Of a stretch of 40,889 nucleotides of DNA, positions 20,985-21,000 are shown in pieces. Location of the stretch: NCBI GenBank assembly GCA_030706785.1, contig JAUZNW010000011.1, positions 1 to 40,889 on the forward strand, in the 5' to 3' direction. The notes beneath the pieces were generated by a model. The model made no database searches. It saw only the letters and a list, made by a program, of their open reading frames with translations, and was not told where the DNA came from. The stretch is from Bacteroidota bacterium (GTDB taxonomy: Bacteria; Bacteroidota; Bacteroidia; Bacteroidales; VadinHA17). The translations under genes and the position numbers were made by a program. Positions within the stretch are counted from its first letter, which is position 1. Every line of letters starts with the position of its first letter.

Positions 20985-21000
20985 TGTTAATTAATTAACA
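20985..21000. promoter_or_regulatory. Perfect palindrome TGTTAATTAATTAACA (Rex-like operator) in front of the Hdr-like operon
   Basis: 16-bp perfect inverted repeat TGTTAA-TTAA-TTAACA, 2 nt downstream of the predicted minus-strand -7 element. Same half-sites and spacing as 32342-32357. Confidence 0.65.

Follow-up and report, generated by a model that had tools for sequence, protein, structure and literature searches.

For the clostridial Rex repressors, the operator consensus TTGTTAANNNNTTAACAA is given in published texts, and Rex sites of the form TTGTTAAN4TTAACAA are listed for T. saccharolyticum (PMC5886521). The palindrome described here has the half-sites, the 4-bp spacer, the promoter position and the redox and carbon targets in common with these clostridial and Thermoanaerobacter-type operators (PMC5886521). 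In contrast to them, it occurs in Bacteroidales alongside a Rex protein with a VRRD helix, carries outer Y/R instead of T/A bases, and precedes sulfur-oxidation genes. The Rex regulon of Caldicellulosiruptor bescii, as set out in an excerpt of its report (PMC6391272), likewise includes PFOR and an operon for a class V aminotransferase and phosphoglycerate dehydrogenase that was identified as a Rex target by EMSA; rex is autoregulated there as well, which the sites before some rex genes suggest for Bacteroidales too. However, the group consensus there is TTGTGAAN4TTCACAA, unlike here, and sHdr or SQR targets are not noted in that excerpt. In the sHdr system of Hyphomicrobium, too, sulfur oxidation depends on an operon that is under regulation and encodes an HdrA-type subunit of the short kind; its repressors sHdrR and SoxR are described as ArsR-type proteins that sense sulfane sulfur (PMC12423496), whereas a redox repressor is predicted here. 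Binding within coding regions, resembling the intragenic sites reported below, has been described for NtcA and CodY, and for NtcA a blocking of elongation was proposed on the CodY model (PMC3898017). Here the evidence consists of synonymous-site conservation rather than ChIP, and the papers retrieved do not describe intragenic sites for Rex. Against this background, the present locus yields candidates for both the operator and the sensor that would control sulfur-oxidation genes in a large genus of Bacteroidales that is still uncultured.

The window, that is, the whole analysed stretch of 40,889 nucleotides, is contig C13 of a draft genome (G000) of 3.65 Mb, 97% complete and 6.5% contaminated. 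The whole analysis was based on sequence only, using draft genomes in which genes were called by a simple ORF procedure. Motif expectations were drawn from sampled genome stretches and pattern controls. The features of the window on which the argument depends are as follows.

15906..17813, minus strand: 635-aa Fer4 and CCG protein
17797..18141, minus strand: small Fe-S protein (ferredoxin), 114 aa
18143..19171, minus strand: short HdrA-like flavoprotein, 342 aa (best full-length solved match 6tjr, 349 aa)
19178..20239, minus strand: HdrB-like protein with CCG domain
20252..20959, minus strand: HdrC-like 4Fe-4S protein, first gene of the operon
20985..21000, no strand: operator palindrome TGTTAATTAATTAACA, putative Rex-type site 1, perfect over 16 bp (exact scan and ortholog conservation)
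21002..21009, minus strand: -7 promoter box TAAATTTG of the hdr operon, Bacteroidota type TAnnTTTG
21037..21069, minus strand: conserved upstream promoter block, consensus TAnGTATAAATACCcc..AAATAGGcTTTAAG
32331..32338, plus strand: -7 box TACTTTTG of the SQR promoter
32342..32357, no strand: second putative operator palindrome TGTTAATTTTTTAACA, an exact match absent from the earlier note
32370..33602, plus strand: sulfide:quinone reductase, SQR (NF049943 type III; mitochondrial-type SQR structures match)
33657..33968, plus strand: DsrC-like protein
33987..34484, plus strand: DsrE2-like sulfur carrier (92 bits, under the family cut-off of 210)

The earlier note had pointed to a perfect 16-bp palindrome just past a minus-strand -7 element, and this arrangement is present at 20985-21000: read along the minus strand, the box TAAATTTG (21009-21002) is followed by a single T (21001), the palindrome, and the hdrC ATG at 20959. 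The -33 element of this promoter is weak, and a sigma-70 scan was uninformative for the TAnnTTTG promoter type. Orthologs of hdrC were found in 55 of 59 genus genomes. The palindrome, with at most two mismatches, lay directly after TAnnTTTG in 23 of the 29 genus hdr promoters read, so that the site is kept at the same place upstream of orthologous operons, a point on which the earlier note had made its reading depend. Often these palindromes deviated in nothing but a G at the outer position, which is the final base of the promoter box. The block at 21037-21069, upstream of the -7 box, is also kept in the hdr promoters of the genus (loci L113-L142) and may be the site of a second regulator. At one of these loci (L136), the first bases of the contig (G015:C38) carry gtctcgtgggctcggagatgtgtataagagacag, presumably a leftover Nextera adaptor.

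The operon behind this promoter likely has an sHdr-like sulfur-oxidation role, because its products comprise a short HdrA, HdrC, HdrB, a small ferredoxin and a Fer4-CCG protein, with SQR, DsrC and DsrE2 nearby. The match to 6tjr, which we take to be the sHdrA of Hyphomicrobium, spans residues 3-335 of the 342-aa HdrA-like protein, and long HdrA chains match only partly. In place of separate hdrC2 and hdrB2 genes there is one gene for the 635-aa Fer4 and CCG protein, in which counterparts of HdrC2 and HdrB2 may be fused. Because the operon resembles sHdr, sulfur oxidation would be coupled through Rex to NADH/NAD+.

The second palindrome is located in the promoter of the SQR gene. It was kept with at most one mismatch in 16 of 18 usable orthologs, usually just past a TAnnTTTG box. 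The hdr and SQR genes are 2-7 kb apart in several relatives, where they point away from each other. If the Rex reading is true, the oxidation of both sulfide and sulfane sulfur would be tied to the NADH/NAD+ balance.

Exact matches to TGTTAAN4TTAACA numbered 29 in G000, compared with 2 for the backwards-read control pattern. When spacers of 0-12 were allowed, 34 matches were obtained, of which 29 had spacing 4 and five were spread over the twelve other spacings together. The motif, whose possible randomness across the genome had been raised in the earlier note, is thus both non-random and specific in its spacing. Since nearly every copy has Y before and R after the core, the motif is written YTGTTAAN4TTAACAR. 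Across the 59 genus genomes the strict motif gave 603 matches against 18 for the reversed controls, with 0 to 44 sites per species; the species compared share ancestry, and counts across them are therefore non-independent. Two exact copies of the palindrome, those at the hdr and SQR promoters, lie in the window.

The presence of a rex gene, another point on which the earlier note depended, was confirmed by a PF06971 search that returned two Rex-family proteins in G000, both with GxGxxG. Their recognition helices are ITAVQVRRDLMLIG (Rex1) and VTPDQVRKDFSEF (Rex2), while AKDLSF marks a third subtype found in the order. Rex1 of G000 is 81% identical to that of its close relative G011, which contains PF02629 and PF06971 and matches solved Rex chains over nearly its full length (E=6e-32). 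Relatives retrieved by means of the Rex1 protein were mostly Bacteroidales and Bacteroidota MAGs; Perlabentimonas gracilis was the one isolate with a name among them.

In other Bacteroidales families, the palindrome occurs 20-130 bp upstream of Rex1-type genes, sometimes in two copies. Such genes were found in G126, G091 (both rex), G142, G071, G127 (both), G099, G100, G122a, G134 and G066; G126, G091, G142 and G071 were picked after the adjacency of site and rex had been seen, and among the other eleven genes seven had the site. The helix ITxVQVRRD[LI]MLIG and GxGxxG are common to Rex1 and these presumably autoregulated Bacteroidales Rex proteins. No palindrome was found upstream of the four AKDLSF-type rex genes examined, and among 51 further Rex loci scanned upstream the site was absent or weak in most and present in a minority. 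Within the genus, rex1 belongs to a receiver-kinase-rex1-ribF operon, which was preceded by the palindrome with at most two mismatches at 7 of 20 loci (three with the exact core); at the remaining 13 the promoter site was absent or weak. Neither rex gene of G000 shows a site; contig C87 begins inside the upstream kinase gene, so the rex1-operon promoter lies off the contig. The conserved neighbourhood of rex1 in the genus (L095:4078-7176, L143-L162) includes a receiver protein and a receiver-histidine kinase, with ribF next in G011; it would be unusual for Rex to be linked to a two-component system.

The abundance of the motif also followed the Rex subtype. Among 147 genomes of the order outside the genus, the mean number of sites was 1.55 in the 69 with a non-AKDLSF Rex, 0.13 in the 23 with the AKDLSF subtype (assigned by HMM score) and 0.42 in the 55 without Rex. 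Ten genomes outside the genus had four sites or more, and every one of them belonged to the non-AKDLSF Rex group (Fisher p=4e-4). Motif abundance thus tracks the Rex1-type group, and neither the other subtype nor the genomes without Rex.

The predicted targets in redox, fermentation and central carbon metabolism are typical of Rex. In G011, promoter sites precede genes for PFOR, fumarase, a CoA-ligase subunit, a PhsA-like molybdopterin oxidoreductase, a lipoate-ligase-family protein and an ABC permease, as well as an aminotransferase-V and phosphoglycerate dehydrogenase operon; the PhsA-like gene has a site in G005, G006, G011, G189 and G194. Targets outside the genus include methylmalonyl-CoA mutase and glutamate dehydrogenase (two families each), NuoEF-like proteins, Kor and acyl-CoA dehydrogenase. 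A B12-dependent ribonucleotide reductase target is common to G015 and the outside genome G099. Many other predicted targets are unrelated to redox or carbon metabolism or have no assigned function.

Computation directly established the motif, the places where it lies and how far they are conserved, and also that it co-occurs with Rex and recurs in rex-gene promoters. The palindrome at 20985-21000 is very probably an operator for a Rex repressor of the Rex1 subtype of G000, as the earlier note had supposed for Rex in general: rex is present, the site is conserved, the palindrome recurs in rex promoters, and its abundance tracks the Rex1 group. From these sequence comparisons we infer that Rex1 is the binder, that it responds to NADH and that it represses. 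A Rex1 dimer, with its NAD(H)-binding domain, would bind YTGTTAAN4TTAACAR over the predicted transcription start, just past TAnnTTTG, and block transcription of the sHdr-like hdr operon, and the operator at 32342-32357 would act likewise on SQR-DsrC-DsrE2. If Rex1 behaves like the Rex proteins studied so far, it would leave both operators when NADH/NAD+ is high, and the two operons would then be transcribed.

A regulator of the CRP/FNR family, reading the palindrome as TGTTA-N6-TAACA, is an improbable alternative binder, even though Rex and CRP sites have a common TGTnAN6TnACA geometry and one G000 copy (L054:3347-5580, G000:C201) lies between a CRP-family gene (cNMP_binding and HTH_Crp_2) and a divergent multiheme cytochrome c gene. 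Set against it are the sites that Rex1-type genes of several families have in their own promoters, an abundance that follows a Rex subtype, and the inner A...T of the palindrome, which fit Rex.

The enrichment in promoters is real, but about half of the genus sites are intragenic, something that the earlier note had not anticipated. Counting against the Rex reading are this intragenic share, for which simple promoter repression does not account, the rex promoters with an absent or weak site, and the wide range of site numbers between species. Strict sites inside genes made up 13 of 24 in G000 (where some cases, at offsets 5, 8, 65 and 89, may reflect miscalled starts), 12 of 21 in G011 and 7 of the 20 examined in G194. 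The corresponding numbers for Rex1 genomes outside the genus were 0 of 10 in G091, 1 of 7 in G071 and 1 of 6 in G099, and the lone intragenic sites of the latter two were both within 75 bp of the called start. In species of the genus with few sites, the remaining ones were mostly intergenic, though not in all such species (in G021, four of five lay inside called genes). The internal sites stand in the sole stop-free reading frame, and the V[NK]xLT peptides that they encode are mostly unrelated. Neither codon usage nor a constraint on the peptide explains them: 17 intragenic palindromes occurred in the sampled coding sequence against a codon-usage expectation of about 0.8 per genome, an excess of about 20-fold, and TTA is a rare leucine codon. 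An origin through Rex2 is unlikely, since G015 and G002 have many sites and one Rex match each, of the Rex1 type.

A gene for a hybrid kinase (HisKA and receiver) provided the closest view of such a site. The palindrome was intact in 19 of 32 orthologs, and among 329 six-codon windows none had a larger excess of synonymous identity than the one containing it (4.3 standard deviations); across the 32 species, the top seven windows all overlapped or adjoined the palindrome. A local promoter at this position is excluded, as the site has no adjoining TAnnTTTG box and its surroundings are not conserved. Species with a broken palindrome in the kinase gene had fewer sites elsewhere (median 3.5 versus 8.5, p=0.009 with kinship ignored). 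Elsewhere, the palindrome was found at the same position in G000 and G194 in both a TPR protein and a protein with a T9SS tail, and the GH106 alpha-L-rhamnosidase genes of G000 and G011 (L039, L088, L092) share the aligned position with a different peptide. The synonymous conservation in the kinase gene and these same-position copies indicate that selection acts on the DNA itself in at least some of the intragenic copies.

The intragenic copies probably serve the same binder as the promoter copies, so that Rex1 would bind the motif inside genes of the genus as well. A tentative extension, of somewhat less than even probability, is that the Rex motif spread into gene bodies, where selection on synonymous sites maintains some copies and where Rex, or a protein sharing its sites, acts as a roadblock, a titrator or a chromosome organiser. 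The conserved gene-body copies, with Rex-bearing relatives lacking them as a control, would make a clean case for intragenic operator function, and if this gene-body reading is true, the redox sensor would, besides repressing promoters, have another role specific to this genus.

That the genus motif is instead mainly architectural, organising the chromosome while its promoter copies are incidental or shared with Rex, seems very unlikely. The intragenic half of the sites in G000 and G011, the mixed functions of the host genes and the at least one internal site conserved at the DNA level with no conserved promoter around it would suit such a role, but the best-conserved copies are those of the hdr and SQR promoters, site numbers vary so widely between species, and no clustering of sites was evident in G011, a genome in 20 contigs. 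Least credible of all is a chance AT-rich palindrome: a window scan at two mismatches gave no excess over shuffles (2 versus 2.03), but the case for the motif rests on exact genome-wide matches and conservation rather than on that scan, and the exact-match excess, the spacing specificity and the position kept in hdr and SQR orthologs refute it.

The notion that every intragenic site is conserved was rejected, as the site in the aconitase gene occurs only in the three closest species (L242-L244; G011, G182 and G003). There it coincides with amino-acid changes in a variable loop, and this coincidence, together with the restriction to a three-species clade, suggests a recent gain.
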